Below are positions 3,384-25,381 of a DNA stretch of 64,000 nucleotides, in pieces (the first letter of the stretch is position 1; each line of letters opens with the position of its first letter). The translations under genes and the position numbers were made by a program. Origin of the DNA: Pararhodobacter sp. GTDB lineage: Bacteria; Pseudomonadota; Alphaproteobacteria; Rhodobacterales; Rhodobacteraceae. Under the pieces are notes generated by a model. It was given only the letters and a program-made list of their open reading frames with translations, ran no database searches and had not been told where the DNA came from. Where the stretch lies: the NCBI GenBank assembly GCA_020832545.1, contig JAFIEK010000005.1, forward strand, positions 62,001-126,000. Reading direction: 5' to 3'.

Positions 3384-3409
3384 GGTGGCACCTCTTGCAA
3401 AAGTGTCAG

Positions 3410-3436
3410 CAGCCGGTGCTTTTGCGGCACCGGCTG
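3410..3436 (-). terminator. Hairpin between the DoxX and dioxygenase genes
   Basis: The arms CAGCCGGTGC (3410-3419) and GCACCGGCTG (3427-3436) are perfect complements around a 7-base loop. On the minus strand the hairpin lies just after the DoxX stop and is followed by a short T-containing stretch. It may terminate or attenuate transcription before the dioxygenase gene. Confidence 0.4.
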
Positions 3437-3445
3437 TCAGTCAGT

Positions 3446-3883: not shown

Positions 3884-3978
3884 TGTGTGATCTCCTGGGA
3901 TGCGATGGCATCGGATGTTTTCGATGTCCGCAACATGACCGCTGATCGCCGCGATGATAATCCACCTACTGGGAAGAT

Positions 3979-4003
3979 GATTGCATCCACTGTGGAAGCA
4001 ATC
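3979..4003. promoter_or_regulatory. Candidate LysR operator upstream of the DoxX gene
   Basis: GATTGCATCCA (3979-3989) and TGGAAGCAATC (3993-4003) are inverted repeats with one mismatch and a 3-base spacer. The site touches the stop codon of the LysR gene and lies about 95 bases before the DoxX start. A palindrome of this size, containing ATTGC and GCAAT, fits a LysR-type recognition site. Confidence 0.4.
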
Positions 4004-4912: not shown

Positions 4913-5012
4913 AAAGGTCTTTCCGGTGCTACGGCATACAAGAAACCAATGCCGTTATTAGATCAGATCATGATCAAAGTGCACAGCGCCCGCCGCCATC
5001 TGATCATAACCC

Positions 5013-5037
5013 GGAACAACTGCGGGCCGGAAGCGTT
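5013..5037 (+). promoter_or_regulatory. EcfG-type (general stress) promoter
   Basis: GGAAC (5013-5017), 16 bases and CGTT (5034-5037) match the alphaproteobacterial EcfG consensus exactly. The -10 element ends 34 bases before the start of the KGG-type gene at 5072. It may also drive the sensor kinase and receiver genes downstream. Confidence 0.7.
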
Positions 5038-5071
5038 GAGAGACAGCGACATTACTGAACAGGAGCGCCTG

Positions 5072-5380
5072 ATGCCACGGGGCGACAAATCGAAATACAC
5101 CGACAAGCAGGAGCGCAAGGCCGAGCACATCGCCGAAAGCTATGAAGAACGCGGCGTCCCGGAAAAGGAAGCTGAGCGCCGTGCTTGGGCCACCGTCAAC
5201 AAGGACGATGGCGGCGGCAACAAGAGCGGCTCGGGGCGCGGCACGCATACCGGCAACCCCGCCGCAAGAAAGGGGGGCAAGAAGGGTGGTGCCGCATCGG
5301 CGGCGCGCCCGGCTGAAGAACGCTCGGAATCTGCCAGAAAGGCGGCGCAAACGCGCAAGCGTAACGAAGGTGCTGCATGA
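5072..5380 (+). CDS. Small basic KGG/'plasmid stabilization'-type stress protein
   Basis: A 102-residue, very hydrophilic protein starting MPRGDKSKYTDKQERKAEHI. It has a conserved first half that ends RRAWATVNKDDGG and a Lys/Gly/Ala-rich, probably disordered second half. Databases usually label this family 'plasmid stabilization protein', but nothing here ties it to plasmid partition, and that name should not be taken as function. The start at 5072 is chosen because the conserved family sequence begins there and AGGAG lies upstream. An exact EcfG-type promoter precedes it, which points to a stress-induced role. Its product is unlike the flanking enzymes. Confidence 0.75.
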   Translation: MPRGDKSKYTDKQERKAEHIAESYEERGVPEKEAERRAWATVNKDDGGGNKSGSGRGTHTGNPAARKGGKKGGAASAARPAEERSESARKAAQTRKRNEGAA

Positions 5381-5493
5381 TCGACACCCGGGCGGGGGCA
5401 CCGTCGCGCCTTGCCGCAAACCTTGCCCGTAAACAGACATCCCGGTATGGTCGCTGCGCATTCGAAGCGGCCAAAACCTTTCAGGGAGAGAGG

Positions 5494-8400
5494 ATGCACG
5501 ACACCGTGCAAGAAGGCGTTTTGGAGAAGGTTCCGGTCTGCGCTCTTGGGGCGTCGGCGGGTGGCTTGGCGGCGTTGCGCACGTTTTTCCAGAATGTGCC
5601 GGACGATCTGGGGCTGGCCTATGTGGTGATCACCCATCTGGCACCGGATCACCCCAGTGTTCTGAGCGATATCCTTGGCGGTTGCACCTCGATGCCGGTT
5701 CAGCAGGTGTTGAGCGATCTCGAACTGTTGCCAGACACTGTCTATGTCATCCCGCCTGATCGCGAGCTGGTGATTGACGGCAACAACATCACGGCACGCC
5801 CCTTCACCGAGCCGCGCGGGCAACGCGCGCCCATCGACATGTTCTTTCGCTCGGTGGCGGCGGGGCGTGGTGACGGCTGCGCGATTGTGCTGTCCGGTGC
5901 CGGATCAGACGGGGCGAAGGGGGTTGAGGCCATCAGGGCGCAAGGCGGAGTGGTTTTTGTGCAAGATCCGAAAGATGCCGAATACGCCATGATGCCGCGC
6001 AATGCGATTGCCTCGGGCGCGGCTGATTTCGTTGAGGCGATTCCGCAGATGGTCGATCGCCTGGTTGAGGTGGTGCACAGCAAATCGGCGCTGCGCTCGA
6101 TGCAGGGCGCGGACGCGCAGCAGGCCTTGCAGCGTGTTCTGGCCTTTCTCCACGCGCGCACCGGGCATGACTTTTCAAAATACAAACGCGCCACAGTTCT
6201 GCGACGGATCTATCGCCGGATGCAGGTCGCGCGGCTTCAGAACCTTGGCAGCTATTGCGACTACCTGACCGGCAATCCTGAAGAGGCGCAGGAGCTGCTC
6301 GGCGATATACTGATCTCGGTCACCTCTTTTTTCCGCGACCCCGAGGCCTATGCAGCGCTGGCAAAGAGCGCGATTCCGTCACTTTTCGAGAACACCACCG
6401 AAGAGGGCATTCGCATCTGGGTGGCGGGGTGCGCGACCGGCGAGGAGGCCTATAGCTTGGCCATCCTGTTGCTGGAGGAGGCGGAGCGGCGGCAAGTGTC
6501 GGTTCCTATCCAGATTTTTGCCACCGATCTGGACGAAGGCGCGCTGTCGACCGCGCGTGAGGGGCGCTACGGCGTGGCCATCGAGGCCGATGTGTCGGAA
6601 GAGCGGCTGGCGCGCTTTTTCGTGCGCGAAGGGGCGCACTACCGCATCCGACGGGAGGCGCGGGATACCGTGCTGTTTGCGTCGCACAGCGTGCTGAAGG
6701 ACCCACCCTTCCTGCGGCTTGACATGATCGCCTGCCGCAACCTGCTGATCTACCTTGACAGCGACCTGCAGCGCGAACTTTGCACGATGTACGGCTATGC
6801 GCTGAAACCGAACGGGGTGTTGTTTCTCGGCTCGGCTGAAACCCCTGACGCGGCGCCAGACAGCTTCACCGCGCTTGACCGCGAGCACCGGATCTACCGG
6901 GTCACGCAGCATCGGCTGAAAGACAAGCCGATGCAGTCAAAGTTCCCGCCCAAGTATCACACGACGGTTGCGATGCCGCAGCACCGTCCAGAGCCTGAAG
7001 ATCGTGACCGGCGCATCGGGGCGCTTCACCACCGGGCACTGGAAAAATCTGCGCCCCCCAGCGCCCTTGTCGACCGCGATTTTCGTGTGGTCCACCTGTC
7101 CGAGAATGCCGGGCGCTACCTGCTGCCCGCAGCCGGGCCTTATACTGCCGATTTTGCATCTCTGGTGCGCCCGGAACTGCGCATTGACGTCAGCACCGGG
7201 TTGCGCCGCGCATTGGAGCAAGGCGCAACCACGTTGTCACCGGCCATCGCTGTCGGCTTTAACGGGTCGCGGCACAAAGTGATGATGCGCATCTCGCCGG
7301 TCAGCGAGAATGCGGGAAACCCGGCATCGCAGGCGCTTGTCCTGTTCATCGATGCCGGCCCGGCACCGAGCGCTGATGACATCACGCCTGAGCAAAGCTC
7401 GGCTGATGACATCCGGCACCTGCGCGGCGAGCTTAACGCTGCGCGCGCGCAGCTTGTTGCGTCACGGGTGGAATATGAGACGGCAATACAGGAACTGCGG
7501 GTCGCCAACGAAGAGCTTCAGTCGATCAATGAAGAATACCAATCAACCTCAGAGGAACTGGAGACCTCAAAGGAAGAACTGCAATCGATGAACGAGGAGT
7601 TGCGGGCCGTCAACTCGGAGCTGAAGAGCAAGCTTGAAAGCATTTCGATCGCGCATAGCGACCTTGAAAACATGGTCAGTTCAACCGATGTGGGCACGCT
7701 GTTTCTGGACCCGCAACTACGCATCCGGATGTTCACGCCAGACGTGGCGCGCATCTTCAATGTGACGTCAGCCGATGTCGGCCGCGCGCTCACCGATTTC
7801 ACACACCGGCTGAACTATCAGGGGCTGGCGGATGACGCTGCGCAGGTGTTGCGCGATCTGTCGGCGAAGGAACAGGAGGTCGAAACCCAGGACGGTGAAT
7901 GGCTGCTGATACGGGTGCGGCCCTACCGCACCATCGATGACCGGATCGAAGGGGCGGTTGTCACCTTCATCGATGTGAGCGAGCGCCGCGCAGCGGTCAT
8001 CAACAAGAACGCCAGTGAAGCGCGCATGCGCGCGCTCATCAGCGCAACGTCAAATGTGATCTATTCCATGAGCGCGGACTGGAAAGAAATGAACCAGTTG
8101 AATGGTGGCGGCCTGCTTCGCGATACAACGACACCGAACCGCGAATGGATGGATGACTATATTCATGAGAACGATCAGGCGCAGGTTCAGAAACAGATCG
8201 ACGCGGCAATCGCATCCGGCGCCAATTTCGAGTTCGAGCACCGGGTACGGCTGGAGGACGGAAGCACTGGCTGGGTTCAGTCACGCGCGGTTCCTATCGT
8301 GGATGAGCATGGGGCGGTAACAGAGTGGTTTGGCTGCGCTACCGATGTCACAGAGCGACGGCGCAGCGAAGAGGCCCGCAGCCTGCTGATCAGAGAGCTG

Positions 8401-8976
8401 AACCACAGGGTCAAGAACATGCTTGCGGTGGTCCAGTCCATTGCCAGGCAAACCCGGCGTTCGAGCGCCACCATCGAAGAGTTCGTCGACTCATTCGAAC
8501 GTCGCATCCGCGCGCTTGCCGGAGCGCACAGACTGCTCACGCGCAGCGAATGGAGCGGGTCGCGGCTGGACGAGTTGGTGCATTCATCGGTGTCGTCCTT
8601 CCTGTCCAGCAAGGCCGACCGGGTGCATATTCAGGGCCCCTATGTGAAGTTGCGACCTGACGCCAGCATCGCCGTGGCGATGGCACTTCACGAACTGGGA
8701 ACAAATGCCCTGAAATATGGTTCGTTAAGTGCAGCGGCCGGAACATTGGATATTGTCTGGTCGTTGGAACAAGGCGCCGAGGGCGCACGCGTCATCCTCA
8801 ACTGGACTGAGCGCGAAGGCCCGGTGGTCAAGCCGCCAAAGAAAGAGGGATTTGGCACTCGGCTACTGAAGACCGGAATCGCGCGGGAACTTGATGGTCA
8901 TGTCGACCTCGACTTTCCGCCCGAAGGATTGCAATGCAGACTGGAGTTTCCACTTGAACACGCAGCTAAAGACTGA
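5494..8976 (+). CDS. CheB-CheR-PAS-HWE hybrid sensor histidine kinase
   Basis: The 1160-residue protein combines four parts. A CheB-type methylesterase domain (about 8-190) has GASAGG with the catalytic Ser, THLAPDH and GSDGAKG. A CheR methyltransferase domain (about 210-465) has VAGCATGEEAYSLA and CRNLLIYL. A coiled coil (about 640-725) is rich in EEL repeats. It is followed by two PAS-like domains (about 725-960) and an HWE kinase end (about 965-1160) with ELNHRVKNMLAVVQSIARQ as the phosphorylation helix, HELGTNALKYG as the ATP lid and LNWTEREGP as the W.E motif. The start at 5494 follows a strong GGAGAGAGG; an in-frame upstream start at 5377 is less likely. HWE kinases commonly feed the PhyR-NepR-EcfG system, and the neighbourhood supports that role. 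Confidence 0.9.
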   Translation: MHDTVQEGVLEKVPVCALGASAGGLAALRTFFQNVPDDLGLAYVVITHLAPDHPSVLSDILGGCTSMPVQQVLSDLELLPDTVYVIPPDRELVIDGNNITARPFTEPRGQRAPIDMFFRSVAAGRGDGCAIVLSGAGSDGAKGVEAIRAQGGVVFVQDPKDAEYAMMPRNAIASGAADFVEAIPQMVDRLVEVVHSKSALRSMQGADAQQALQRVLAFLHARTGHDFSKYKRATVLRRIYRRMQVARLQNLGSYCDYLTGNPEEAQELLGDILISVTSFFRDPEAYAALAKSAIPSLFENTTEEGIRIWVAGCATGEEAYSLAILLLEEAERRQVSVPIQIFATDLDEGALSTAREGRYGVAIEADVSEERLARFFVREGAHYRIRREARDTVLFASHSVLKDPPFLRLDMIACRNLLIYLDSDLQRELCTMYGYALKPNGVLFLGSAETPDAAPDSFTALDREHRIYRVTQHRLKDKPMQSKFPPKYHTTVAMPQHRPEPEDRDRRIGALHHRALEKSAPPSALVDRDFRVVHLSENAGRYLLPAAGPYTADFASLVRPELRIDVSTGLRRALEQGATTLSPAIAVGFNGSRHKVMMRISPVSENAGNPASQALVLFIDAGPAPSADDITPEQSSADDIRHLRGELNAARAQLVASRVEYETAIQELRVANEELQSINEEYQSTSEELETSKEELQSMNEELRAVNSELKSKLESISIAHSDLENMVSSTDVGTLFLDPQLRIRMFTPDVARIFNVTSADVGRALTDFTHRLNYQGLADDAAQVLRDLSAKEQEVETQDGEWLLIRVRPYRTIDDRIEGAVVTFIDVSERRAAVINKNASEARMRALISATSNVIYSMSADWKEMNQLNGGGLLRDTTTPNREWMDDYIHENDQAQVQKQIDAAIASGANFEFEHRVRLEDGSTGWVQSRAVPIVDEHGAVTEWFGCATDVTERRRSEEARSLLIRELNHRVKNMLAVVQSIARQTRRSSATIEEFVDSFERRIRALAGAHRLLTRSEWSGSRLDELVHSSVSSFLSSKADRVHIQGPYVKLRPDASIAVAMALHELGTNALKYGSLSAAAGTLDIVWSLEQGAEGARVILNWTEREGPVVKPPKKEGFGTRLLKTGIARELDGHVDLDFPPEGLQCRLEFPLEHAAKD

Positions 8977-9340
8977 ACTGACAAAGACTGAACTGAAGCT
9001 TCTAGTGGTCGAAGATGAGGCACTCATTTCCCTCGATCTTGAGTGCATACTCCAGGATCTTGGCCATCAGGTGCTTGGCGTGGCTGGGAATGTCGCAAAG
9101 GCACTCGCGCTGGTTGAGCAGTACGCGCAAGAGGCCGATGGGGCCGTTCTGGATGTCAATCTTGGGGGTCATTCCTCTGCGCCGGTCGCGGATGCCCTGC
9201 ACAGTCACGGCATTCCTTTTGTGGTCGCCTCTGGCTATGAACAGGGCGAGCTGGAGCGGCTTGGCTTCAAGGAAAAGGGTGTGAACAAGCCGTATTCGTC
9301 GCAGGAACTGGCGAACGCACTTCAAAAGCTCGAACGCTGA
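8954..9340 (+). CDS. Stand-alone receiver (single-domain response regulator)
   Basis: About 128 residues made of one receiver domain: LKLLVVEDEALISLDLE with the acidic pocket, GAVLDVNLGG with the likely phospho-acceptor Asp, and VNKPYSSQEL with the conserved Lys. VVASGY resembles the degenerate FATGY motif of single-domain regulators that work in the alphaproteobacterial general stress response (SdrG/MrrA type). There is no output domain. The TTG start at 8954 is preferred because homologous sequence begins just after it; ATGs at 8894 and 8900 are alternatives. The frame overlaps the 3' end of the kinase gene, so it is its probable partner. Confidence 0.8.
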   Translation: MNTQLKTELTKTELKLLVVEDEALISLDLECILQDLGHQVLGVAGNVAKALALVEQYAQEADGAVLDVNLGGHSSAPVADALHSHGIPFVVASGYEQGELERLGFKEKGVNKPYSSQELANALQKLER

Positions 9341-9431
9341 CACCGATCGCCCCGGCGTGATCAGATGCGACTTGCGAAAAGGTAAGCGACGCCCTGATAA
9401 AGATCATTCGCCGGAACTCAGACGCCTGCCC

Positions 9432-10964
9432 CTAAACCGGCAAGTCCCCTGTTTTCAACGGCATGGCATCCGGCGAGTGATCTTTCGTCAGGGCGGCAAG
9501 ATAGCTCTCCAGCCATGCTTGCGAGTCATGGGTAGTGATGCGTTCCAACAGCGCGGCATGGCGTTCGCGGCGCTCATCCAGCGGCATGCTCAATGCCCGG
9601 TAAAGCTGCGCTGCCATGTCGTCAGTATCATACGGGTTGACAATCAGCGCCTCTTGCATCTCTTCCGCTGCCCCGGCGAATTCTGACAAGACCAGAACCC
9701 CTGGGTCATCCGCGCTCTGTGCCGCCACATATTCCTTGGCAACCAGATTCATGCCATCGCGCAGCGGGGTCACAAAGCCCACATCACTGTTGCGCATCAA
9801 GGGTGCCAGCTGGCTTCGCGGCAGCGAACGGCAAAGAAACTGGATCGGCGTCCAATCCAGATCGGCAAAACGCCCGTTGACCGACCCGGCCAAACCCTCC
9901 AGTTCAGCGCGGATGTCGGCGTAGGCGTCCACCTCGGCGCGTGTCGGCGGGGCAATCTGCAAGTAACCAACCTTCTTTTTGAGTTGCGGATAGTTCGACA
10001 AAAGAGTGTCGAACGCCCTGAACCGCTGCGGCAATCCCTTGGAGTAATCCAGCCGGTCCACGGCAATGATGCGTTGCGGTTCTGGCTCGCCCTCGGGCTC
10101 TCCGGCAGCCGTCGGATCGCCGCCATCCTTGCGCGCCAGTTCGGCAAATGCACCGACATTGATCCCGATGGGGAACCGGTCGATCTGTACGGACCGATGA
10201 CCAGTGCCGGGCGTCCCGGCATCGGTTTCCTGTGTGCGAAGATAGGTTTTCAGATTGGCAACGTCGGTATGGGTCTGAAACCCCAGAAGATCATAATCCA
10301 GCATCGCATCAACCAACGCGCGATGATTGGGTGTGGCGGACAACAGATCAGGCGGGGGAAAGGGGATGTGCAGAAAATGCCCTATCCGCTGCTTGCATCC
10401 CAGTTTTCGCAGGTAGCAGGCCAGCGGAATCAAATGGTAGTCATGCACCCAGATAATATCATTGGGCTTCAACATCGGCATCAACCGCCGGGCAAAGGCC
10501 TCGTTCACGCGCATATAGGCTTCAAAACCGGCAGAATTGAAGTTCACCAGATCAAGGCGGTAATGAAACAATGGCCACAGCACGCTGTTGGCATAACCAA
10601 GATAATAGTCCGCGAAATCCTTGGGCGATACCGGCGCGCCAACGCAGGTGATGCGCCCGAATTGCCTGACCTCGACCGGGCCGCCGGTTTCGCCCTCGCG
10701 TTTGCCGTTCCAGCCGAACCAGATCCCGCCACGACGGCGCATGGCGTCTGACAGTCCGACGGCCAGACCACCAGACTGCGCCGAGGCGCGCAGATCGGCA
10801 ACCCGGTTGGACACGACGATCAACCTTTGCTGCCCCTCTTCGCCGCCAGAGTCTGAAGAGGGATCCTCGACACTGCCCTGCAAGCTAGACACGGGCACTT
10901 CAGCCCCGTCCCGTCGGACTGTGACGAAGGCGCCGCCGTGCAGTTGTGAGGATTGAACTGACAT
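9432..10964 (-). CDS. otsA: Alpha,alpha-trehalose-phosphate synthase (OtsA)
   Basis: A 510-residue GT20-family glycosyltransferase that joins a nucleotide-activated glucose to glucose-6-phosphate to make trehalose-6-phosphate. Family motifs are present: RLIVVSNRVADL at the start of the domain, WVHDYHLIPLACYLRKLG, and RLDYSKGLPQRFRAFD in the nucleotide-sugar pocket. About 45 residues precede the catalytic domain. The start at 10964 is the best available ATG. A good AAGGAG lies rather far upstream of it, and an in-frame ATG at 10997 overlaps that motif. It follows otsB by 40 bases on the same strand, forming otsBA under the promoter at 11815-11840. Confidence 0.92.
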   Translation of the reverse strand: MSVQSSQLHGGAFVTVRRDGAEVPVSSLQGSVEDPSSDSGGEEGQQRLIVVSNRVADLRASAQSGGLAVGLSDAMRRRGGIWFGWNGKREGETGGPVEVRQFGRITCVGAPVSPKDFADYYLGYANSVLWPLFHYRLDLVNFNSAGFEAYMRVNEAFARRLMPMLKPNDIIWVHDYHLIPLACYLRKLGCKQRIGHFLHIPFPPPDLLSATPNHRALVDAMLDYDLLGFQTHTDVANLKTYLRTQETDAGTPGTGHRSVQIDRFPIGINVGAFAELARKDGGDPTAAGEPEGEPEPQRIIAVDRLDYSKGLPQRFRAFDTLLSNYPQLKKKVGYLQIAPPTRAEVDAYADIRAELEGLAGSVNGRFADLDWTPIQFLCRSLPRSQLAPLMRNSDVGFVTPLRDGMNLVAKEYVAAQSADDPGVLVLSEFAGAAEEMQEALIVNPYDTDDMAAQLYRALSMPLDERRERHAALLERITTHDSQAWLESYLAALTKDHSPDAMPLKTGDLPV

Positions 10965-11004
10965 GGGATTGCGCCTGATGCTCCTTCTACCCATTGTCAA
11001 CGCA

Positions 11005-11778
11005 TCAGGGCATCGATTGTTCCGCGCTTCCTGGCCGGAAGTCTGTGAGTCCGGCAAGATATCTCGCCACCGCCGCAGGGTCTGCCAGCCGGAACTGCGC
11101 GCAGGTCTGGCCCGCACCCACCTTGACCGAGACCCCGTCCATCGCGTTCACTTTTGAAAAGCCCGCCTCGTCCGTCACATCATCCCCGGCAAAGAACGCG
11201 CGCCGACCCGCAAACGGCTTGCCAGTCATCAGCCCGGCTATCGCATCGCCCTTGTTTTGCGGGCCGCACTTCAGCTCAGTCACCATCTTGCCTGTGATCA
11301 GAAAAAAGTCCGGGTTGCGGGCAGCCTGCTTTTCCATGAAGTGCAGGCAGGCTGATGCCATTTGGGGCCGGTTGCGGAAGTGCAGCGCGACAGAGCCGGG
11401 CTTCACCTCTGCCAACAGCCCCGGCGTGGCCTCTGCAAACCGCCCGGTGGCCGTGGTCAGCCGGGCCAGCGCCATATCATCGACCGCCGCGCGTGTGATA
11501 CGTCCATCCGGGCCCCGCTGTTCCAGCCCATGCACGCCGACGCAGGGAAGCCTGAGGGGTGCAAGCATCTGATCCAGCTGCGCGATGCTACGCCCCGAAA
11601 TCAGCGCCACGGCCCCATCCGCCGCCGCGTCAAGCGCGTCAAGCACCGACAGCACCTCTGGTGACACCCGCGCTTGTCGGGGGTCAGAGACAATCTCGGC
11701 CAAGGTGCCATCGACATCCAGAAAGAACGCAGTTTTGGCAGGCGACAGCACGGGTGGTGAACGGTCAGGCGAGGGCAC
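11005..11778 (-). CDS. otsB: Trehalose-6-phosphate phosphatase (OtsB)
   Basis: A HAD-superfamily phosphatase of about 257 residues with AFFLDVDGTLAEI (nucleophile Asp) near residue 20, ALISGRS (motif II), and GDDVTDEAGF (motif IV) near residue 205. It dephosphorylates the product of OtsA to trehalose. No ATG is in a sensible place; the GTG at 11776-11778 fits both the length of the family and the position of the EcfG-type promoter, and another GTG at 11751 is possible. It is the first gene of otsBA. Confidence 0.88.
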   Translation of the reverse strand: MPSPDRSPPVLSPAKTAFFLDVDGTLAEIVSDPRQARVSPEVLSVLDALDAAADGAVALISGRSIAQLDQMLAPLRLPCVGVHGLEQRGPDGRITRAAVDDMALARLTTATGRFAEATPGLLAEVKPGSVALHFRNRPQMASACLHFMEKQAARNPDFFLITGKMVTELKCGPQNKGDAIAGLMTGKPFAGRRAFFAGDDVTDEAGFSKVNAMDGVSVKVGAGQTCAQFRLADPAAVARYLAGLTDFRPGSAEQSMP

Positions 11779-11814
11779 GGGCGAAACAATCTGAAAGTTG
11801 CGATGTGTTCTAGT

Positions 11815-11840
11815 AACCGGCGGCGGGGGTGGATGGTTCC
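11815..11840 (-). promoter_or_regulatory. EcfG-type promoter of otsBA
   Basis: On the minus strand GGAAC (11840-11836), 17 bases and GGTT (11818-11815) match the EcfG pattern with G in place of C at the first -10 base. The predicted transcript would start about 30 bases before the chosen otsB start codon. Its -35 element lies 40 bp from that of the divergent promoter at 11881. Confidence 0.65.
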
Positions 11841-11880
11841 GCGCATTACTGGTGCGGCGCAACTGTCGTGGCGAAGACGC

Positions 11881-11906
11881 GGAACTTTCCACATGCCCGG
11901 CGGGTT
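11881..11906 (+). promoter_or_regulatory. EcfG-type promoter of the AI-2E family gene
   Basis: GGAAC (11881-11885), 17 bases and GGTT (11903-11906) lie 46 bases before the ATG at 11953. Spacing and -10 sequence are the same as in the divergent otsB promoter. Confidence 0.65.
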
Positions 11907-11952
11907 GGGAACACGGGCCACAACCAGCCCTCAGGCAAGGAGGCCACCTTTC

Positions 11953-13008
11953 ATGACGCCACAACCGGCGCAGACCCCCCCTTCCAGCAGCCATGAACCC
12001 CAAGGGACCGGGCTGCGCACCGAATGGGTGCTGCTGGGCGTGGCGCTTGCCCTTTTTGCCTATTTCATCGCTCCGGTGCTGCTGCTGGTGTTCGCGGGCC
12101 TCGCGCTTGCGGTGGCGCTTGACGGGCTTGCCGCAATGACCGCGGCGCGCACGCCGCTGTCACGGGGCTGGGCTGTTCTGGTGATCGTGCTGGTTCTGAT
12201 CGGACTGCTGGCAGCTTTCATTGTGGCGATCCCCGGACAACTCGCCGCGCAGATGGACCAGATGTGGCAGGCCCTGGATGCGTTCATCAAGGACGCTGTC
12301 GAGTGGCTTGAGGGAATTGGTGTCACGCCCGAGCTGCTCGGACTTGGCGAAAACAGCGAGGATCTTGTCGGCACGGCAAGCACAGCAATGGGCCATGTGG
12401 CGCGCTGGGGCATGACGACCCTGGGTGCCCTTGCCAGCTTTGCGGTGATGCTGGCCGTCGCAGGCTTTGCCGTGGCCGATCCCGCGCTGTACCGGCGAGG
12501 GCTGGTGCGGCTGCTGCCGCACAGCAAACGGCCACTGATGGAGGACACGCTGTCAGCCGTGGCGCAGGCGCTGCGGTGGTGGTTTCTCAGTCAGCTTGTG
12601 TCGATGCTGATGCTCGGCATCACAGTGTCGGCAGGGCTTTGGGTGATCGGGGTGGATCTGTGGCTGGGTCTGGGTGTTCTGACCGCGCTGCTGACCTTCG
12701 TGCCCTACCTGGGGCCGGTGATCGCCGGCATTCCAATTCTGGTGATCGCCTTTGCCGACAGCGCCCAGACCGGGCTGATCGTGACCGTCTTTTACCTGAC
12801 GGTGCAAAATGTCGAATCCAACATCGTTGTGCCAATGATCCAGCAGAAAGTCGTGCACCTTGCCCCGGTGCTGGCAATTGCCGCGCAGGTGTTCTTTGGC
12901 CTTTTGTTCGGCTTGCCCGGCTTCATTCTGGCCGCACCGCTGGCGGTTGTGGGTATGGTGATGGTGCAGAAACTGTGGGTGGAGGCGGTGCTGGGTGACG
13001 AGGCCTGA
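11953..13008 (+). CDS. AI-2E family (PerM/YdiK-like) membrane transporter
   Basis: A 351-residue integral membrane protein with about eight hydrophobic segments, a soluble insertion after the third, and the conserved C-terminal block LGPVIAGIPILVIAF and ESNIVVPMIQQKVVHLAP typical of the AI-2E/PerM family. Some relatives export small solutes or Na+ in exchange for protons; the substrate of this one is unknown. The start is set by AAGGAGG 9 bases upstream. It shares a bidirectional stress promoter region with otsBA, so a role in osmotic or stress physiology is inferred. Confidence 0.87.
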   Translation: MTPQPAQTPPSSSHEPQGTGLRTEWVLLGVALALFAYFIAPVLLLVFAGLALAVALDGLAAMTAARTPLSRGWAVLVIVLVLIGLLAAFIVAIPGQLAAQMDQMWQALDAFIKDAVEWLEGIGVTPELLGLGENSEDLVGTASTAMGHVARWGMTTLGALASFAVMLAVAGFAVADPALYRRGLVRLLPHSKRPLMEDTLSAVAQALRWWFLSQLVSMLMLGITVSAGLWVIGVDLWLGLGVLTALLTFVPYLGPVIAGIPILVIAFADSAQTGLIVTVFYLTVQNVESNIVVPMIQQKVVHLAPVLAIAAQVFFGLLFGLPGFILAAPLAVVGMVMVQKLWVEAVLGDEA

Positions 13009-13276
13009 GCAACTGCCAGACGCGGCGGCAGCCGACCCATGGAAACACCATCAACCGAAGCGGGCGAGGCATGCCTGAATTCACGATGAAAGGTGAATTT
13101 TCCCATACAGTCACGGGAAATGCGGTGTGTGTAGTGGACTTCCCGGCACTTGATTGGCAAGGTCAGTTCGGAACGTCTTGCCCCCGGGAAGTACCAAAGA
13201 TGGGCTTGATCCATGATCATTTCCCGACCGTAAGAAAAAGAAACACAGGACGATTGAAACGCAAGGGGTTCCCGGA

Positions 13277-13444
13277 ATGTCGGGCGGACATGACAAGCAC
13301 GATACAGGTGATCATCTGGAGCAGGAACTCAGGCAGATCCTGAAAAGGATTGAAAGAGAGCCGGTTTCGGATGAGCTTCGCACACTGGCGAAACAGCTGG
13401 AAGATGCATTGAGAAAACGCGATCAGGACGGGAATACGGGTTAA
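13277..13444 (+). CDS. Very small NepR-like protein (putative anti-sigma factor)
   Basis: A 55-residue, highly charged helical protein. Its core, from LEQELRQILKRIEREPVSDE to LAKQLEDALRKR, resembles the two-helix NepR fold with the EPVxD turn. NepR proteins bind EcfG sigma factors and are released when PhyR-P binds them. The usual Tyr in the first helix is replaced by Ile and there is no PhyR beside it, so this is an orphan or divergent member at best. ecfG is about 3 kb away on the other strand. No exact EcfG promoter was found before it. A short unrelated helical protein is the alternative. Confidence 0.5.
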   Translation: MSGGHDKHDTGDHLEQELRQILKRIEREPVSDELRTLAKQLEDALRKRDQDGNTG

Positions 13445-13471
13445 CCGTTATCGCCGGGTGCGCGCGGGTGG

Positions 13472-13843
13472 CTAGTCATCGTCATGTCGGTTGCTTCGAC
13501 GGTGCCAGGGCCATCGGCCTTCTATCTCGACCTCCAGCGAGAAACTCAGGAATGTGCGGATCAGAACAATCGCCGCCAGCACACCCAGGCTCTCCATCGT
13601 TGGTTCGATGATGACCGTGCCCACAATATCGGCGGCAATCAGAAACTCCACGCCGATCAGAATGCTCTTGGCCAGCCGGGTGCGGAAAAGGTCATAGATT
13701 GTCTTGCCATCACGGCGCCGGACCAGATTGCGCAGGGCTTCACCAATGCCAATGACGCAACCCACCACAATCGCCAGAACGCCCATCACCTCAAGAAGCT
13801 GGGCGATGATTTCAAGGTAGCGATGCGTGAATTCCGGGGACAT
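13472..13843 (-). CDS. DUF1622 family membrane protein
   Basis: A 123-residue protein with three hydrophobic helices at about residues 14-34, 58-80 and 84-100 and the family's charged linker RRRDGKTIYDLFRTRLAKSI. DUF1622 proteins are small inner-membrane proteins of unknown function. It ends with a cluster of His and Asp. The gene lies between the NepR-like gene (convergent) and a small hypothetical gene on the same strand, 49 bp away. Confidence 0.75.
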   Translation of the reverse strand: MSPEFTHRYLEIIAQLLEVMGVLAIVVGCVIGIGEALRNLVRRRDGKTIYDLFRTRLAKSILIGVEFLIAADIVGTVIIEPTMESLGVLAAIVLIRTFLSFSLEVEIEGRWPWHRRSNRHDDD

Positions 13844-13892
13844 TGGGCCAACCTCTCAAGCGCCATCCCTTTGGCACACAGGGTGCATGGGT

Positions 13893-14147
13893 TCAGGGGG
13901 CATCGCGGATGGCCCGGGCCCGCGCCACCAGCAGTTGCCATTCCCGCGCGGTGGCAGCCTCGATGGCAAAGGCCTGATCAGGCAGCGCACCGGGGTCTTC
14001 CTGATGGTCCTGTACGGTCGCGCCCTCGTCGATACGCCGGGCGATGTCATTGCCCGGCTGGCGCATCACCGAGGCCAGAATCATCGCCAGAACCTCGCGG
14101 TGTGCGTTGAGGCGGCCCTCAAGTTCTTGTGGCGACGGAATTGACAT
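13893..14147 (-). CDS. Small hypothetical protein
   Basis: An 84-residue soluble protein beginning MSIPSPQELEGRLNAHREVL. It is predicted to be mainly helical, with a probable helix pair at residues 7-35 and a final basic helix EWQLLVARARAIRD. I do not recognise a family. The start at 14147 is preferred because it follows a plausible GAAAGG and the longer frame would run into the PRC-barrel gene. The gene lies 73 bp after the PRC-barrel gene on the same strand, so it could be expressed with it from the stress promoter at 14656. Confidence 0.6.
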   Translation of the reverse strand: MSIPSPQELEGRLNAHREVLAMILASVMRQPGNDIARRIDEGATVQDHQEDPGALPDQAFAIEAATAREWQLLVARARAIRDAP

Positions 14148-14220
14148 GACCGGCCTTTCCCTTCTGAAGGATTGCTCGGTGCTGTGGCGGCACAACGCTG
14201 CGCCGCCATAGCAGGGCGTG

Positions 14221-14625
14221 TCATACGCCGTAGGGCAGCCCGTAGTGGCCATGGATACGGCGACCGTATTGCGGGTCAGTCCAGGGCTCGTCATCGCGGG
14301 CATAGTGCGGCCCACCTTCGAGCTGCTCGCGCGAGACATTGACGACATAGCCGCCATAGCCGGTGTCGTATTTCAGCGTGTCCCACGGCAGCGGGTGATA
14401 CCGCTCTCCAATGCCGAGAAAGCCGCCAAACGACATCACGGCGTATGAGACCTTGCCGGTTACCTTGTCCACCATGAAGTTGTGGACGCTGCCGACATGC
14501 TCGCCCTCAAGGTTGTAGACATTGGTGCCTTCAACCTTGTCCGAGGCGATCAGGCGCAGCGTCTCGTCAATGGCCTCGCCCTGTCGGACACTGCCAGCGG
14601 GCGCATTCGTTGCGTTGTAGGTCAT
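14221..14625 (-). CDS. PRC-barrel domain protein
   Basis: A 134-residue protein with one PRC-barrel (about residues 25-100): NVYNLEGEHVGSVHNFMVDK followed by YAVMSFGGFLGIGERYHPLPW. The C-terminal tail is rich in Gly, Tyr and His. Such proteins are common, abundant stress proteins in alphaproteobacteria; their biochemical role is not established. The start is fixed by AAGGAG, spaced 6 bases upstream. An EcfG-type promoter lies 31 bases before the start. Confidence 0.85.
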   Translation of the reverse strand: MTYNATNAPAGSVRQGEAIDETLRLIASDKVEGTNVYNLEGEHVGSVHNFMVDKVTGKVSYAVMSFGGFLGIGERYHPLPWDTLKYDTGYGGYVVNVSREQLEGGPHYARDDEPWTDPQYGRRIHGHYGLPYGV

Positions 14626-14655
14626 GTCAGTTCTCCTTTGGTTGGTGTCTGACAT

Positions 14656-14680
14656 AACCTCCGGCAGGTGTTGACGTTCC
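14656..14680 (-). promoter_or_regulatory. EcfG-type promoter of the PRC-barrel gene
   Basis: On the minus strand GGAAC (14680-14676), 16 bases and GGTT (14659-14656) lie 31 bases before the ATG at 14625. PRC-barrel genes are frequent EcfG targets in related bacteria. Confidence 0.65.
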
Positions 14681-14740
14681 GCGCCGCCACATCACATCGT
14701 CGGGTTGCGTGCAGCTTTTCGCCGGGCCGCGCCCGCCCGG

Positions 14741-16234
14741 CTACCAAAGCCCGATCAGCGGCAGCACCACAAACCACGCCACATAAGTCAGCCCCAGCAT
14801 GAGCAGCAGGTCGATGCGCCCCTCAGAGGCACCTTTGCGCACATACCGGTCCAGCATCCAGACCTGTAATACGGCATGCGGAACAACGATCAGCGGTAGC
14901 AGCAGGCTGACCTGCGCCAGCACCAGCGCCAGCATCACGGCCACCAGCGCCGACGCAACGGTCAGCCCCTTCGCCAGCCGTGCTGAGCGGGCCGCCCCAA
15001 GGCGCACCACCATGGTGATCTTGCCTGCTGCGGCGTCGGCGGCGCGATCGGGGATGCCCGCCAGCAGGATCGCGGGCAGTACCGACAGCCCGATAGCCAG
15101 CCCCATCGCCCAGGCCTGCGTCGAGAGCGGGTCACCGCCCTGCACCACATAACCCAAGAGCAGCACACCCGGCCCATGGGTAAGGGCCACATCCAGCTCA
15201 CCCAGCCCGCGATGCGACAGCTTCAGCGGGGGCATCGTATATCCAAGTGCAAGCACCGCCAGCGCCCCCAGAACCACTGCCACCGCGCCGGGGGCGGGCA
15301 CCAGAAACAGCAGCACCAGTGTCGCCACCGCAGCAACCGCCAGCGCCACACTTACCCCGCGCCAGAGATCCGCCAGCGACAGCACCCCCTCGTGCAGGCT
15401 GCGCCCGCCACCATTGAACGGCCCCCAGTGCCGGTTCACCGCATCGCTGTCGCGATCATAGATATCGTTGGACAGCACCGTCGCGATCTTGAGCGCGACC
15501 ATCGCCACCAGACCTGCGACAAAGGCCAGCGGGTCTAGCGGGCGCATCAGCAACAGCGCGCCCAGCGTATAGGCCAGCACGCTCATCGGGTAGAACTGCG
15601 GGCGCACCGCCAGCAGCCATTGCCCGGCGCGGTGCAACCGTCTGCGCACCGGCCCACGCGGACCACCGGCCATCCGCTCGCCCAGCACCCGCGCCTGTGT
15701 CACCCAGCTTGCGCGGGTGGGCGCGTCGGTGTGGCTGGGCGGGGAAAAGACATGCACGCCCAGTGTCTTGATACCGCACAGGCCCAACGTCGCGCGGGTC
15801 ATGGCCCGCTGGCCGGGGGCGCCCTGCACCCAGCGATAGACCAGCGGCGGCACATCCATGGTAACCAGCAACTCAGCCGTGCGCGGTGCCAGCAGGCCAT
15901 AGTAATGCCCGCCCTCCTCGCGAAAGGCGAAGCCCGGGTAAAGCACCCGGTCCAGAAACCCCTTCAGCCGCGCGGGCATCATGCCCCACCAGTTCGGAAA
16001 GACGAACACCAGATGGTCGGCCCAATCGACCAGATCGCGTGCGTTCTCAAGATCAGGTTCCAGCGCCTGATCAGCGGGCGAGGGGGTTTCAACATCGGGG
16101 TTGAACGCCATCTCGCCCAGATCAAGGGTGCGCACCGTGCAGCCCGCGCTTTTCGCGCCTGCGGCATAGGCATCGGCCAGCGCGCCACAGAGGCTTGCTT
16201 TTCGGGGATGTCCAAGAATGACCAGCAGATTCAT
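14741..16234 (-). CDS. Fusion of NAD(P)H:quinone oxidoreductase (flavodoxin fold) with UbiA prenyltransferase
   Basis: A 497-residue protein in one uninterrupted frame. Residues 1-190 form a flavodoxin-like NQO domain (MNLLVILGHPRKASL, FPNWWGMMPARLKGFLDRVL). Residues 220-497 form a UbiA/MenA-like membrane domain with the first Asp motif, NDIYDRDSDAVN, the second Asp motif, DRAADAAAGK, and about eight helices. The first half would reduce a quinone with NAD(P)H. The second would transfer a prenyl chain to an aromatic acceptor in the membrane. The start at 16234 follows GGAGG and matches the start of stand-alone NQO proteins. I infer a role in quinone or prenyl-lipid chemistry; the substrate is unknown. 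It lies in the stress gene region. Confidence 0.85.
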   Translation of the reverse strand: MNLLVILGHPRKASLCGALADAYAAGAKSAGCTVRTLDLGEMAFNPDVETPSPADQALEPDLENARDLVDWADHLVFVFPNWWGMMPARLKGFLDRVLYPGFAFREEGGHYYGLLAPRTAELLVTMDVPPLVYRWVQGAPGQRAMTRATLGLCGIKTLGVHVFSPPSHTDAPTRASWVTQARVLGERMAGGPRGPVRRRLHRAGQWLLAVRPQFYPMSVLAYTLGALLLMRPLDPLAFVAGLVAMVALKIATVLSNDIYDRDSDAVNRHWGPFNGGGRSLHEGVLSLADLWRGVSVALAVAAVATLVLLFLVPAPGAVAVVLGALAVLALGYTMPPLKLSHRGLGELDVALTHGPGVLLLGYVVQGGDPLSTQAWAMGLAIGLSVLPAILLAGIPDRAADAAAGKITMVVRLGAARSARLAKGLTVASALVAVMLALVLAQVSLLLPLIVVPHAVLQVWMLDRYVRKGASEGRIDLLLMLGLTYVAWFVVLPLIGLW

Positions 16235-16337
16235 GCCTGCCTCCGCGTTTGATTGGCCCCAAGGCGCGGTGGTCCGTTCCGTTCTACCAGCGCAAAACCC
16301 GTTGAACATTGGCGCGTCCGTTGCGCGCCATTGATCC

Positions 16338-16904
16338 TCACGACAGCGGAATTTCGGCTGATACCGGCGCTGATACGCTCTCGGTGATGCCGCGCGGCGA
16401 CCCCTCACCCAGATCTTCCAGAAGCCGCAGCCGCGCCCGGTTGAGCCGGCTTTTCACCGTGCCGATTTCACATTCACAGATCTCGGCGGCTTCCTTGTAG
16501 CTCAGACCCAGCACACCGATCAGCATGATCACCTCACGCTGTGACCGGGGCAGCACACAGATCGCATTGCTCAGTTCCTGCTGGCGCATCGACCATTCCT
16601 GCCGGGGTATGCACCCAACCTGACTGGCAACGCAGTCGGCAGCGCCGGGCGACTCTCGCACGGCGATCTTGTATTGGGTGCAAAAGGTGTTCCGCATGAT
16701 CGTGAACAACCAGGACTTGAGGCTGGTGCCGGGCCGGAACTGGTGAATTTTGGTCAGGGCCTTGGTCAGGGTTTCCTGCACCAGATCATCCGCATCGGTG
16801 GGGTTGGTATGGAACGACCACGCAAACGCGCGAAGGGCGGGAATAAGCGCGACAATATCAGCCCGGGTTGTTACGTCGGTTTCGTCGAATGGAGCCAAGG
16901 GCAT
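16338..16904 (-). CDS. EcfG-like ECF sigma factor
   Basis: A 188-residue sigma factor. Region 2 lies at about residues 15-80 ([19 protein letters not shown], then [16 protein letters not shown]), and region 4 at about 110-165 ([20 protein letters not shown], then [20 protein letters not shown]). The wording around [13 protein letters not shown] is characteristic of the EcfG group, the master sigma factor of the alphaproteobacterial general stress response, which is held by NepR and released by phosphorylated PhyR. The start at 16904 follows GGGAGG. An exact EcfG promoter stands upstream, as expected for autoregulation. No phyR is visible in the window. Confidence 0.85.
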
Positions 16905-16959
16905 CGATCGTCCTCCCTTTCTGATGGGCTTGCAGAAATTGACCGCACCTGATCGTGAC

Positions 16960-16984
16960 AACGACTTCAGGCGCATGCCGTTCC
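16960..16984 (-). promoter_or_regulatory. EcfG-type promoter of ecfG (autoregulation)
   Basis: On the minus strand GGAAC (16984-16980), 16 bases and CGTT (16963-16960) match the consensus exactly. The -10 lies 55 bases before the ecfG start codon. Confidence 0.7.
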
Positions 16985-17698
16985 CTTCGGCGGGACAGAA
17001 ACCTGACAACTTGCGCGAGAAACTCTCGCCACCCGGCCGGGTGTCGGATCACGCGCCAATGACGGTCAGTTGCCGCATCCGACAAGAGGCACGAGAGTGG
17101 CTTGCGCGCACTGGTGCGAGGGCCCGCTCTACACATGGTTGTGCCGTAAAGGCACACATCCGCTCATGACGGGTCATCGCGGGCGCGTGGCGCGTGCATT
17201 GACGCGGGAACCGATTGCGCGGCCTTGGCGTTGAGGGTGTGACACTCCCTGCCCCGTTTGGGCGGGGCATTGCTTTTGAGGTAGTTGGGTATGAATGCAT
17301 ATGTCGCGCGCAGATCCCCTGCGCTGATGTTGCCGCCTTTCGCTGAACACCGGCGGTATATCGGGGAACAGCACTTGAAACCGATGTCGGTGTTTGCCGA
17401 CGACAGAGTTGGGAGCTGCATGTTCCACGGCTGACCGCAGGCGGTTTTCCCTCTCCTGCCGGGTTGCGCCGTTTGCGTGAACGCAGCACCCAATGCACCG
17501 GGCGGCCACACGGCCGTCCGGTGTTATTGTTTCTGCCAATTCGGGGGTTCACCGTGACGGGCTTGCTGGCCTGTAGCACCGGCTTCGTGCCGCTGGGGCA
17601 GTTGCGCAGCGCTTAATTCATGAGCAGCAGATGCACAACAATCTGCCCATCGCACCCTTTTCGCACGGATTTCGCTGTGCCTGCATCCGCCCAGTAAT
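16985..17698. other. 714-bp stretch with no recognisable gene
   Basis: It lies between the divergent ecfG and glgE promoters. Several open frames cross it on both strands, but none shows a known family or a well-placed ribosome binding site, and their compositions (rich in Arg, Ser, Pro) look like shadows. A hairpin with arms TGCCCCG (17250-17256) and CGGGGCA (17263-17269), followed by TTGCTTTT, resembles a plus-strand terminator, although no plus-strand gene precedes it. It may be the remains of a lost gene. Confidence 0.4.
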
Positions 17699-17723
17699 GG
17701 AACCTTGTTATGGCCGGGCCGTT
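17699..17723 (+). promoter_or_regulatory. EcfG-type promoter of the glgE-treS-glgB-treZ-treY operon
   Basis: GGAAC (17699-17703), 16 bases and CGTT (17720-17723) match the consensus exactly and lie 31 bases before the glgE start codon. It places the trehalose/alpha-glucan operon under general stress control. Confidence 0.72.
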
Positions 17724-17753
17724 TTGTTGGGGTAATACCAGTGCAGAAAGGCA

Positions 17754-19840
17754 ATGGACGTGGTCCGCGGGAAGTCAATTACAGAACCGACCAGACGCAC
17801 CGCTGCCTTGAGCGCGCCAGAGGCGCGCAAAACATCAGCCGATGCGGCACCCGCTGATCCGCGCCTTGCGGAACTGGCTGCGCAGCGCATCGCAATCGAA
17901 AGCATCAATATAGAGGTAAATGGCGGTCGGTTTCCGGCAAAGGTGGTGGCCCTTCAGACAGAGCGTGTGGTGGCCGACATATTTGCAGACGGTCATGACA
18001 CCATCGCGGCGGCCATCGTGGTCCGGCATGGCAAGGGTGCGGCGATTGAAACCCCGCTGGAGCATCTGGGCAACGACAGGTGGGAGGCACGGGTGACCTT
18101 TGCCGAGGTCGGACGCCATGACTGCACCATCATCGCCTGGCGCGACCTGTTTGCCACCTGGCGCAAGGATGTCGCGAAGAAGCATGCGGCGGGTCAGGCC
18201 ATCGGGCTGGAACTGGAAGAGGCGCGGCATCTGATTGAGGCGGCTCTTGGGCCCGACGGGCGCGCAAACGCAGATGACGAAACCGCGCTGCGCGATCTGC
18301 TCAAGGCCGATACCAGCGCGCAAAAATCCGGTGCGACAGATGCCGAGCGCCTGAGCCGTCTGACCGCAACCAGTATCGCCGAGCTGATGCAACGTGCCGC
18401 GCCGCGCACTGATCTGACCCGCTACAAGGTGCTGAGTGTGCATGCCGACCGGCGCGCGGCGGCGTTCAGTGCGTGGTATGAGATGATGCCGCGCTCGCAG
18501 TCCGGTGATGTCAATCGCCACGGCACCTTTGATGACGTGATCGACAGGCTTGGCTATGTTCGCGATCTGGGCTTTGACGTGCTGTATTTTCCACCGATCC
18601 ATCCTATCGGGCGCACCAACCGTAAGGGCAAGAACAACTCCCTCACCGCGCAGGAGGGTGACCCGGGCAGCCCCTATGCCATCGGCTCAAAGGACGGCGG
18701 GCATGATGCCATCCACCCCGAGCTTGGCAGTTTCGCTGATTTCAAGCGACTGGTGCAGGCCGCGCATGAACATGGCCTTGAAATCGCGCTGGACTTTGCC
18801 ATCCAATGCTCGCCCGATCATCCGTGGATCAGGGAACACCCCGAATGGTTCGACTGGCGGCCCGACGGCTCGATCAGGTTTGCCGAGAACCCGCCAAAGA
18901 AATACGAAGACATCGTCAATGTGCACTTCTACCGCGATGCCATCCCCGGTGTCTGGTATGCATTGCGCGACATCGTGCTGTTCTGGATCGACCACGGGGT
19001 CAAAATCTTCCGCGTAGACAACCCGCACACAAAGCCCTTTCCGTTCTGGGAATGGCTGATCTCAGATGTCCACACCCGCCATCCTGACACGATCTTTCTG
19101 GCCGAGGCCTTCACCCGGCCAAAGGTCATGAAGCGGCTGGCCAAGTTGGGGTTCAGCCAGTCATATTCCTATTTCACATGGCGCAATGAAAAGGCCGGGC
19201 TTCAGGACTATCTGACCGAGCTGACACAGTCCGCCTGCCGCCATTACATGCGGCCGAACTTCTTTGCCAATACGCCTGATATCAACCCCACCTACCTGCA
19301 AACCAGCGGCCGCCCCGGTTTTCAGGTCAGGCTGGTGCTGGCGGCAACGCTTGGCGGTAACTACGGCATCTATAACGGCTATGAAATCTGCGAATCCGAG
19401 CCGGTGCCGGGCAAGGAAGAGTATCTCAACTCCGAGAAATATGAGATCCGGGCCTGGGACATGGACCGGCCCGGCAACATCCAGAGCGACATCCGCCTGC
19501 TGAACCGCCTGCGCAACACGCACCCCGCCTTGCAGGATTTCACCAATCTGGCCTTCCACGAAGCCGAAGATGACCAGATTCTCGCGTATTCAAAACGCTC
19601 TGAAGATTTGCAGGATTTCATTTTGCTCCACGTCAATCTTGATCCCCACAATGCCCGCAATTTCCGGTTTGAAGTGCCGCTGTGGGAATTTGGCCTGCCC
19701 GATGATGCCTCGGTCGAGGTGCGCGACCTGCTGCACGGGAACCGCTTTACATGGCATGGAAAATGGCAGTGGCTGGAACTGGACCCGGCCACCAGACCCT
19801 ATGCGATCTGGCAGCTCTTTGCCCCGGGGGTGCCGCGCGC

Positions 19841-19844
<4 letters not shown>
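17754..19844 (+). CDS. glgE: Alpha-1,4-glucan:maltose-1-phosphate maltosyltransferase (GlgE)
   Basis: A 696-residue GH13 enzyme that transfers maltose from maltose-1-phosphate to the end of an alpha-1,4-glucan. An N-terminal beta domain (about 45-140) precedes the barrel. Catalytic signatures include KIFRVDNPHTKPFPFWEW (nucleophile Asp near residue 420) and IFLAEAFTRPKVM (acid Glu near 448). The GlgE-specific block PPIHPIGRTNRKGKNN is present. AAAGG is spaced correctly before the ATG. It is the first gene of a five-gene operon and overlaps treS by four bases (ATGA). The enzyme's donor is made by the maltokinase half of the next gene. Confidence 0.93.
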
Positions 19845-25374
<5,530 letters not shown>

Positions 25375-25381
25375 CCCCACC

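Follow-up and report, generated by a model that had tools for sequence, protein, structure and literature searches.

We analyzed a 64-kb stretch of a Pararhodobacter sp. genome (contig JAFIEK010000005.1, positions 62,001 to 126,000; hereafter, the window), in which an EcfG-type sigma factor, a candidate anti-sigma factor, a sensor kinase, and a stand-alone receiver lie among trehalose and glycogen genes and a cluster of EcfG-type promoter sites. The sigma factor, EcfG2, is encoded at 16338..16904 on the minus strand and is placed as a non-canonical ECF15 member by profile matches, a PDB match, and trees. The frame at 13277..13444 (+) encodes NepR2, a divergent NepR-like anti-sigma candidate of 55 amino acids, recognized by a family profile. 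The gene at 5494..8976 (+) encodes a CheB-CheR-PAS-HWE histidine kinase (Pfam CheB 1.8e-47, CheR 5e-46), identified as an HWE kinase by its HWE_HK domain (2.2e-28); its start at 5494 was our choice within an open frame that begins at 5377. Overlapping its end, the gene at 8900..9340 (+) encodes a PhyR-receiver-like protein that has no output domain, with matches that fall below the cut-off in both libraries (Response_reg 3.1e-05; NF006623, PhyR, 1.6e-13, receiver part); the two overlapping genes may share one promoter. Profile searches upheld these four gene calls (EcfG-like sigma factor, NepR-like protein, HWE kinase, and stand-alone receiver), which the original prediction had made from the sequence alone. 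It had also read the sensor, sigma factor, and effectors as one stress island. The site cluster around them is real, but the sigma factor is not the canonical EcfG, and we therefore consider it probable that the general-stress-response module of the window is a second one, based on EcfG2.

The pattern GGAAC-N16/17-SGTT matches the window 13 times, 12 of them within 3152-17723 and one elsewhere, compared with a mean of 1.47 and a maximum of five in 100 dinucleotide shuffles of the window, none of which reached 13 or more. The six GGAAC-N16/17-(C/G)GTT sites initially proposed are exact in coordinate and strand, and the accompanying estimate of about two chance matches per 64 kb was sound. The clustering inferred from them is also genuine, although the count of six was too low: further matches lie at 10999 (-), 8698 (+), 8740 (+), 17207 (+), 3152 (+), and 3526 (+). 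The suggested comparison of this density with the rest of the genome bore the claim out in a plain pattern scan, with 12 matches in 3152-17723 where the genome-wide rate predicts 0.48 (Poisson P of at least 12 matches = 2e-13, for bounds picked after seeing the matches). Among 100 listed of the 144 genome matches, visual inspection picks out two clusters, namely the window island and positions 25-39 kb of contig C20. Nine of the 12 island sites face a gene start at most 250 bp downstream, compared with 13.8% of random placements (binomial P 2.7e-6, an optimistic value because some gene starts were picked by eye and the sites were already known).

The phyR gene had been expected elsewhere in the genome, and indeed the sole PhyR match above the cut-off lies on contig C20. 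The order there is phyR-nepR-ecfG followed by an HWE_HK-positive kinase, the NepR is recognized by Pfam, and 20 kb of this canonical locus hold 12 EcfG-type sites; between phyR and nepR, two divergent sites overlap. The window sigma factor is 43% identical to the C20 EcfG. It belongs to EcfG/ECF15 by its Pfam matches (Sigma70_r2, Sigma70_r4_2, and PhyR_sigma2), and its best PDB match (E 2.9e-47) is 5uxx_A, the sigma subunit in a solved RpoE-NepR complex. In two trees, it falls in an ECF15 clade apart from canonical EcfG (split support 100/98 and 100/100), accompanied by the sigma factor of the S. meliloti locus L119 and those of Stappia, Nitratireductor, and Mesorhizobium. The first tree covered 38 of the 80 named loci obtained in the EcfG2 search (L128 was dropped for a stop near its end, and the other 41 were not entered), and the second placed every genome-search match down to E 4.6e-22, with weaker ones left out. 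The sigma factors of L135 and L137 group with canonical EcfG, and the 80 named loci are therefore not all of the EcfG2 clade. A canonical EcfG is co-located with phyR and nepR; because both of these are on C20, we filed the window sigma factor as a non-canonical EcfG2. On this gene content, the window represents a second, non-canonical module, and the master locus is that on C20. EcfG2 is predicted to direct transcription from GGAAC-N16/17-(C/G)GTT sites.

The NepR2 family profile (A6, 16 rows), derived from small proteins encoded near EcfG2, matched seven of 60 sampled genomes (G000, G008, G011, G016, G017, G035, and G050). The same seven genomes carry a placed EcfG2-clade sigma factor, such that NepR2 is found in 7/7 of these genomes and in 0/53 of the others; the profile was trained on rows from four of these genomes, while G016, G017, and G050 are independent. 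By our own arithmetic, this exact coincidence would arise by chance with a probability of about 3e-9 if shared ancestry is ignored. NepR2 and ecfG2 lie 0.2 to 2.9 kb apart in each of the seven genomes, 2.9 kb in the window. G008 (L158, C11:305000-324000) has a second NepR2 copy at C11:317114, about 16 kb off. In S. meliloti 4H41, a NepR2-like frame (L119:10510-10755, minus strand) adjoins the EcfG2-clade sigma gene and is probably the unannotated open reading frame mentioned in PMC6180224; this and the other papers are cited here from excerpts of their text.

The window NepR2 had no match in Pfam and NCBIfam scans, and it is filed as NepR-like only since the Pfam NepR model does not detect it. 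That model matched 5/17 rows of alignment A4, presumably including the canonical NepR of this genome. A PDB search with the window NepR2 alone yielded 13 weak matches, none of them a NepR, and a PDB profile search placed the NepR chains 3t0y_B, 5uxx_B, and 4qic_B at E 0.31 to 2, ranked under unrelated chains. We regard NepR2 as a candidate anti-sigma partner of EcfG2, with binding to EcfG and PhyR predicted. An EcfG-type site lies upstream of NepR2 in 2/47 named loci, compared with 10/173 shifted controls, and the window NepR2 has no perfect site. This suggests that NepR2 is independent of the sigma factor that it would hold, and that it would act as a standing brake more than as part of a feedback loop.

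In several genomes, a longer receiver protein is encoded near EcfG2, in which the receiver is followed by a segment of about 65 residues that is similar to sigma-2 of EcfG. Full-length members of this reversed-order family occur in 5/7 EcfG2 genomes (G008, G016, G017, G035, and G050) and in 0/53 others, with the training rows of the profile taken from G008, G035, and G050. The window genome and G011 match the receiver part only: a sigma-2 mimic is missing from the window receiver, and a search of the remainder of that genome with the full-length profile did not turn one up. The proteins are encoded in or near EcfG2 islands at L163:10631-11308, L162:9930-10514, L157:13843-14505, L212:6556-7149, L161:13059-13637, L142:18178-18786, L148:9248-9862, and L133:3879-4490, of which one of eight is preceded by an EcfG-type site. 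Within 10 kb of the EcfG2 genes of the named loci they are uncommon, being present in L133, L142, and L148; L153 has a separate short mimic. In G050, two near-alike long frames that end in a sigma-2 mimic (L210:2466-4115 and L211:1444-2961) lie away from the EcfG2 locus.

When a profile of six of the C-termini was searched against the frames of the loci, with sigma factors excluded from the profile, EcfG sigma factors were the next best matches (best E 9e-14), and its alignment to the EcfG2 profile reached a probability of 96 and E 1.9e-9 over 64 columns. Pfam recognized PhyR_sigma2 in 5/6 and Response_reg in 5/6 of the six proteins (A7), at E up to 1. A search with the model of the whole protein barely tested the C-terminal part, since receiver matches filled the list, and this part was hence modeled alone, with a predicted local distance difference test score of 86.8. 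Its top Foldseek match was the 5uxx sigma factor of the RpoE-NepR complex (template-modeling score 0.79, root-mean-square deviation 1.5, E 0.009); no match fell below 0.001, other ECF sigma-2 domains came next, and PhyR further down. A second structure comparison gave a best Z of 11.4 and 10.6 for 5uxx, scores that helical bundles may reach by chance. Eight mimics retain the core; the DDLVQ and I(M/L)RN residues common to ten of ten aligned sigma factors are missing from them. The A7 proteins thus share with PhyR the combination of a sigma-like domain and a receiver. PhyR, however, has the sigma-like part first, as in the solved RT-PhyR chains, and includes both sigma-2 and sigma-4 parts; we did not file the A7 proteins as PhyR because their receiver comes first and they have a sigma-2 part only. 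In G050, neither PhyR nor NepR scores above the cut-off, and the reversed-order protein and NepR2 may constitute the whole switch there. We found no description of a reversed-order PhyR in the excerpted open-licence literature, including PMC8103513.

Canonical loci and EcfG2 islands also differ in their promoter sites within the same genomes. We compared 48 canonical-locus sites with 57 EcfG2-island sites from six genomes of this family that have both systems, with L158 trimmed against double counting and the window restricted to 3001-17800. The base after GGAAC is C in 42/48 canonical-locus sites versus 12/57 island sites (P 4e-12), GGTT occurs in 5/48 versus 29/57 (P 8e-6), and the combination A..GGTT in 0/48 versus 22/57. 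The EcfG2 islands thus lean to GGAACA..GGTT and the canonical loci to GGAACC..CGTT, a tendency that we claim for islands only. Across the 80 named loci, A..GGTT was the commonest and most enriched form (116 versus 3 in reversed sequence), and it remained the commonest with one locus per genus. The sites before ecfG2 itself lean canonical, with C..CGTT in 18/37 compared with 56/597 and, at one locus per genus, in 6/17 compared with 24/248 (P 0.006). This fits the activation of rpoE5 by RpoE2 described in PMC6180224. The EcfG -10 consensus is published as C/GGTT (PMC12148442, PMC4814048), which may blend two site types. A scan for residues that separate EcfG1 from EcfG2, omitting L065, L067, L075, L076, L135, and L137, passed 15 columns, all in sigma-2 or the linker and none in sigma-4, and none of the 15 was tied to the promoter difference. 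In G008, L158 includes another cluster of GGAAC..SGTT sites at a distance of 13-22 kb from ecfG2; of its seven sites, six are A..GGTT.

The site cluster recurs in relatives. The 80 named loci hold 423 sites versus 62 in the reversed control, and 31 loci, one per genus or metagenome-assembled genome, hold 265 versus 32 when any base is allowed at the first -10 position. The named loci are related, and pooled P values are therefore too small; the one-per-genus set was picked by hand. We also inspected orthologue starts outside the window, extrapolating the starts and allowing any base at the first -10 position. Sites were located near the start of glgE in 3/3 checked loci (three weaker glgE matches stayed outside the check), of otsB in 3/4 (one of the loci, L135, having a canonical-group sigma factor), of otsA in 3/5, and of the PRC-barrel gene in 3/5 distinct loci. 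G008 has the same parts in another order (PRC, ecfG2, NepR2, kinase, receiver protein, otsB, otsA), in G011 NepR2-ecfG2 adjoins a treY...glgE block, and Mesorhizobium L103 has kinase-receiver-ecfG2. A fixed gene order was rejected as an explanation, as the parts recur and their order varies among loci.

In the working that we propose, every regulatory step is inferred. Stress would activate the canonical PhyR-NepR-EcfG switch on C20, and EcfG1 would help start transcription of ecfG2, whose product NepR2 would hold. The local CheB-CheR-PAS-HWE kinase and the stand-alone receiver would feed the release step. Release in the window genome would probably proceed via the single canonical PhyR, which we consider the likeliest releaser of NepR2 here because the window receiver has no sigma-2 mimic; this step is the least certain. 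The kinase and receiver would feed PhyR much as MrrA does (PMC5964349). Freed EcfG2, together with EcfG1, would then drive the island promoters, which would serve trehalose and glycogen synthesis, the PRC-barrel protein, the transporter, the sensor, and ecfG2 itself.

Several observations weigh against a second module of this kind. The similarity of NepR2 to canonical NepR is weak (hhalign probability 60, E 8.7e-05), and NepR2 was not found in 33/80 named loci (15/31 by genus), although it may lie elsewhere in those genomes and the count of 47/80 is itself partly circular, the profile having been built from matches in the same loci. When the two site types were counted across 60 whole genomes, EcfG2 genomes did not stand apart from the others. 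The 12 island sites of the window are mixed (6/12 GGTT, 2/12 A..GGTT), a site lies at most 300 bp upstream of ecfG2 in only 33/79 named loci, and the window's own ecfG2 site, G..CGTT, is of neither type. Overexpression of S. meliloti RpoE5 revealed one putative target in the excerpted account (PMC6180224), and the excerpts of PMC3892343 describe R. etli EcfG2 as acting in parallel and not in series, with no anti-sigma gene reported near ecfG2 and no promoter motif identified for it. Finally, none of six other loci has a site upstream of the kinase orthologue. EcfG control of the kinase is therefore not conserved, which lowered our confidence in the second module slightly and left it probable.

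The strongest competing explanation is that the island is part of the canonical EcfG1 regulon, with EcfG2 and NepR2 redundant or decaying and the clustering marking where stress genes gathered or were acquired. It draws on the presence of canonical EcfG1 and PhyR in the genome and on the mixed site types of the window; moreover, G007 (82% complete) has an EcfG-type site at glgE even though none of its sigma factors was placed in the EcfG2 clade, and 20 canonical loci are likewise site-dense (149 sites versus 23 in the control). We nevertheless consider it unlikely, as the EcfG2 and NepR2 frames are intact and co-occurring and the two kinds of island differ in site type within the same genomes. 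A complete insulated switch, in which the receiver, once phosphorylated by the local kinase, itself releases NepR2 without PhyR, appears improbable: the kinase-receiver overlap and the sigma-2 mimic on the receiver protein near ecfG2 in relatives would suit it, but no such mimic was detected in the window receiver or, with the full-length profile, elsewhere in the genome, and MrrA, a described receiver of like kind, feeds PhyK and thereby PhyR (PMC5964349). That the sites are products of chance or composition and not promoters is highly improbable despite the missing genome-wide excess of the pattern over its reversal (144 versus 167 matches in 4.37 Mb) and the 3/12 island matches that face no gene start, because the local density far exceeds expectation, sites precede several orthologues, and the named loci are strongly enriched over their control.

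Extra EcfG copies are already known (PMC3892343, PMC7083833): about half of completed alphaproteobacterial genomes have at least two, and the extras have "not satisfactorily been explained" (PMC3892343). A second, non-canonical EcfG apart from phyR-nepR is described in R. etli, which we liken to the window EcfG2 by description, outside the tree; unlike at the window, the excerpts report neither a nearby anti-sigma gene nor a promoter motif (PMC3892343). A further close system is S. meliloti RpoE5. From its description in PMC6180224, we read the L119 sigma factor as RpoE5; it belongs to the same clade, a NepR2-like frame lies beside it, and its gene is activated by the canonical sigma factor RpoE2, with an unannotated RsiA-like open reading frame adjoining rpoE5 (PMC6180224). 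In the window, by contrast, the candidate brake lies about 3 kb away, within one site-dense island that includes the kinase, the receiver, and trehalose/glycogen genes. The canonical C20 locus resembles the window in its partner-switch parts, dense EcfG-type sites, and PRC-like and AI-2E-like neighbors; it differs in having nepR-ecfG divergent from phyR and mostly GGAACC..CGTT sites, whereas PhyR is absent from the window and the brake there is unlinked. The GSR and GSR' (general stress response) loci of Rubellimicrobium thermophilum are likewise two per genome, with an HWE kinase at one, but have a PhyR at each (PMC12148442). Similarly to the window receiver, MrrA, SdrG, and Sma0114 have no output domain, and MrrA is phosphorylated by HWE and HisKA2 kinases (PMC5964349); the receiver protein of five EcfG2 relatives, unlike these, has a C-terminal sigma-2 mimic. 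In the excerpted open-licence literature, we did not meet a NepR family specific to the EcfG2 clade or a distinct site type beyond the RsiA-like frame beside rpoE5 (PMC6180224).

We judge it an evenly balanced possibility that Alphaproteobacteria hold an unrecognized second, parallel switch, comprising EcfG2, a dedicated NepR2 brake outside the control of its sigma factor, a reversed-order PhyR releaser, and a GGAACA..GGTT dialect of its own, with ecfG2 under the canonical switch. G050 may run it without canonical PhyR and NepR, and the window would represent a version in which the mimic was lost from the receiver or was never part of it, with canonical PhyR or the bare receiver taking over. 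Candidates for the brake and the releaser, together with a separate promoter type, would open the role of extra EcfG copies to direct tests, and the single putative target seen when RpoE5 alone is overexpressed could be due to a standing brake.

Based on strand and spacing, the island probably comprises six units. The first would consist of a small basic protein gene (5072..5380, +; scanned as 5021-5380, with no Pfam or NCBIfam match), the kinase, and the receiver. Upstream of it lies the site GGAAC-N16-CGTT at 5013..5037 (+), with a plausible ATG 33 bp downstream, and two further sites within the kinase gene, at 8698..8722 (+) and 8740..8765 (+), lie 178 and 135 bp upstream of the receiver. 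The second would be otsB and otsA. The trehalose-phosphatase gene otsB (11005..11778, -; TIGR00685 3e-41, above cut-off, start picked by eye) follows a site at 11815..11840 (-), and the trehalose-6-phosphate synthase gene otsA (9432..10964, -; TIGR02400 1.7e-161, slightly below cut-off) has a site 35 bp upstream at the otsB/otsA junction (10999..11023, -), near which G008 also has one. Trehalose genes are known to be under EcfG control. The third putative unit is the AI-2E family transporter gene (11953..13008, +; Pfam AI-2E_transport 5.4e-44), preceded by a pattern match at 11881..11906 (+), with NepR2 only perhaps included.

The fourth would run from the PRC-barrel gene (14221..14625, -; Pfam PRC 1.9e-13), with its site at 14656..14680 (-), through an 84-amino-acid protein gene (13893..14147, -) to a DUF1622 gene (13472..13843, -; 4.9e-23). 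The 84-amino-acid protein has no Pfam or NCBIfam match, and homologues lie near other EcfG2 genes, in 11/85 loci tested. The fifth is ecfG2, with its site at 16960..16984 (-), probably co-transcribed with a gene for a flavodoxin_2-UbiA prenyltransferase fusion (14741..16234, -), assigned by its Pfam domains. In the sixth, glgE (17754..19844, +; GlgE_dom_N_S 1.3e-45) would be followed by a treS-maltokinase fusion (19838..23170, +; Alpha-amylase, Mak_N_cap; treS so named on plasmid relatives), glgB (23167..25374, +; GlgB_N 1.3e-25), and two genes of the alpha-amylase family (25382..29901, +; Pfam Alpha-amylase), which we take to be treZ and treY. Its site lies at 17699..17723 (+), and sites upstream of glgE also occur in G007, G011, and Phyllobacterium L128. 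The block at 17754-29901 has DNA matches of 78-79% identity on Paracoccus plasmids and is patchy among near genomes, with high identity in G000, G007, and G011 of 36.

Three matches lie outside these units. Those at 3152 and 3526 (+) are antisense within genes, and the third is the intergenic site at 17207..17232 (+). Terminator-like hairpins (17247-17269 and 17495-17524) lie downstream of this site in the segment 17207-17530, between ecfG2 and glgE, and a small RNA is possible. The evidence for it consists of the site and the hairpins, and its fold does not surpass that of shuffles (z -0.88). Rfam and tRNA scans of the whole window returned no matches. Upstream of the island, at 1234-2111, lies a gene pair that by eye resembles an Xre-RES toxin-antitoxin module.

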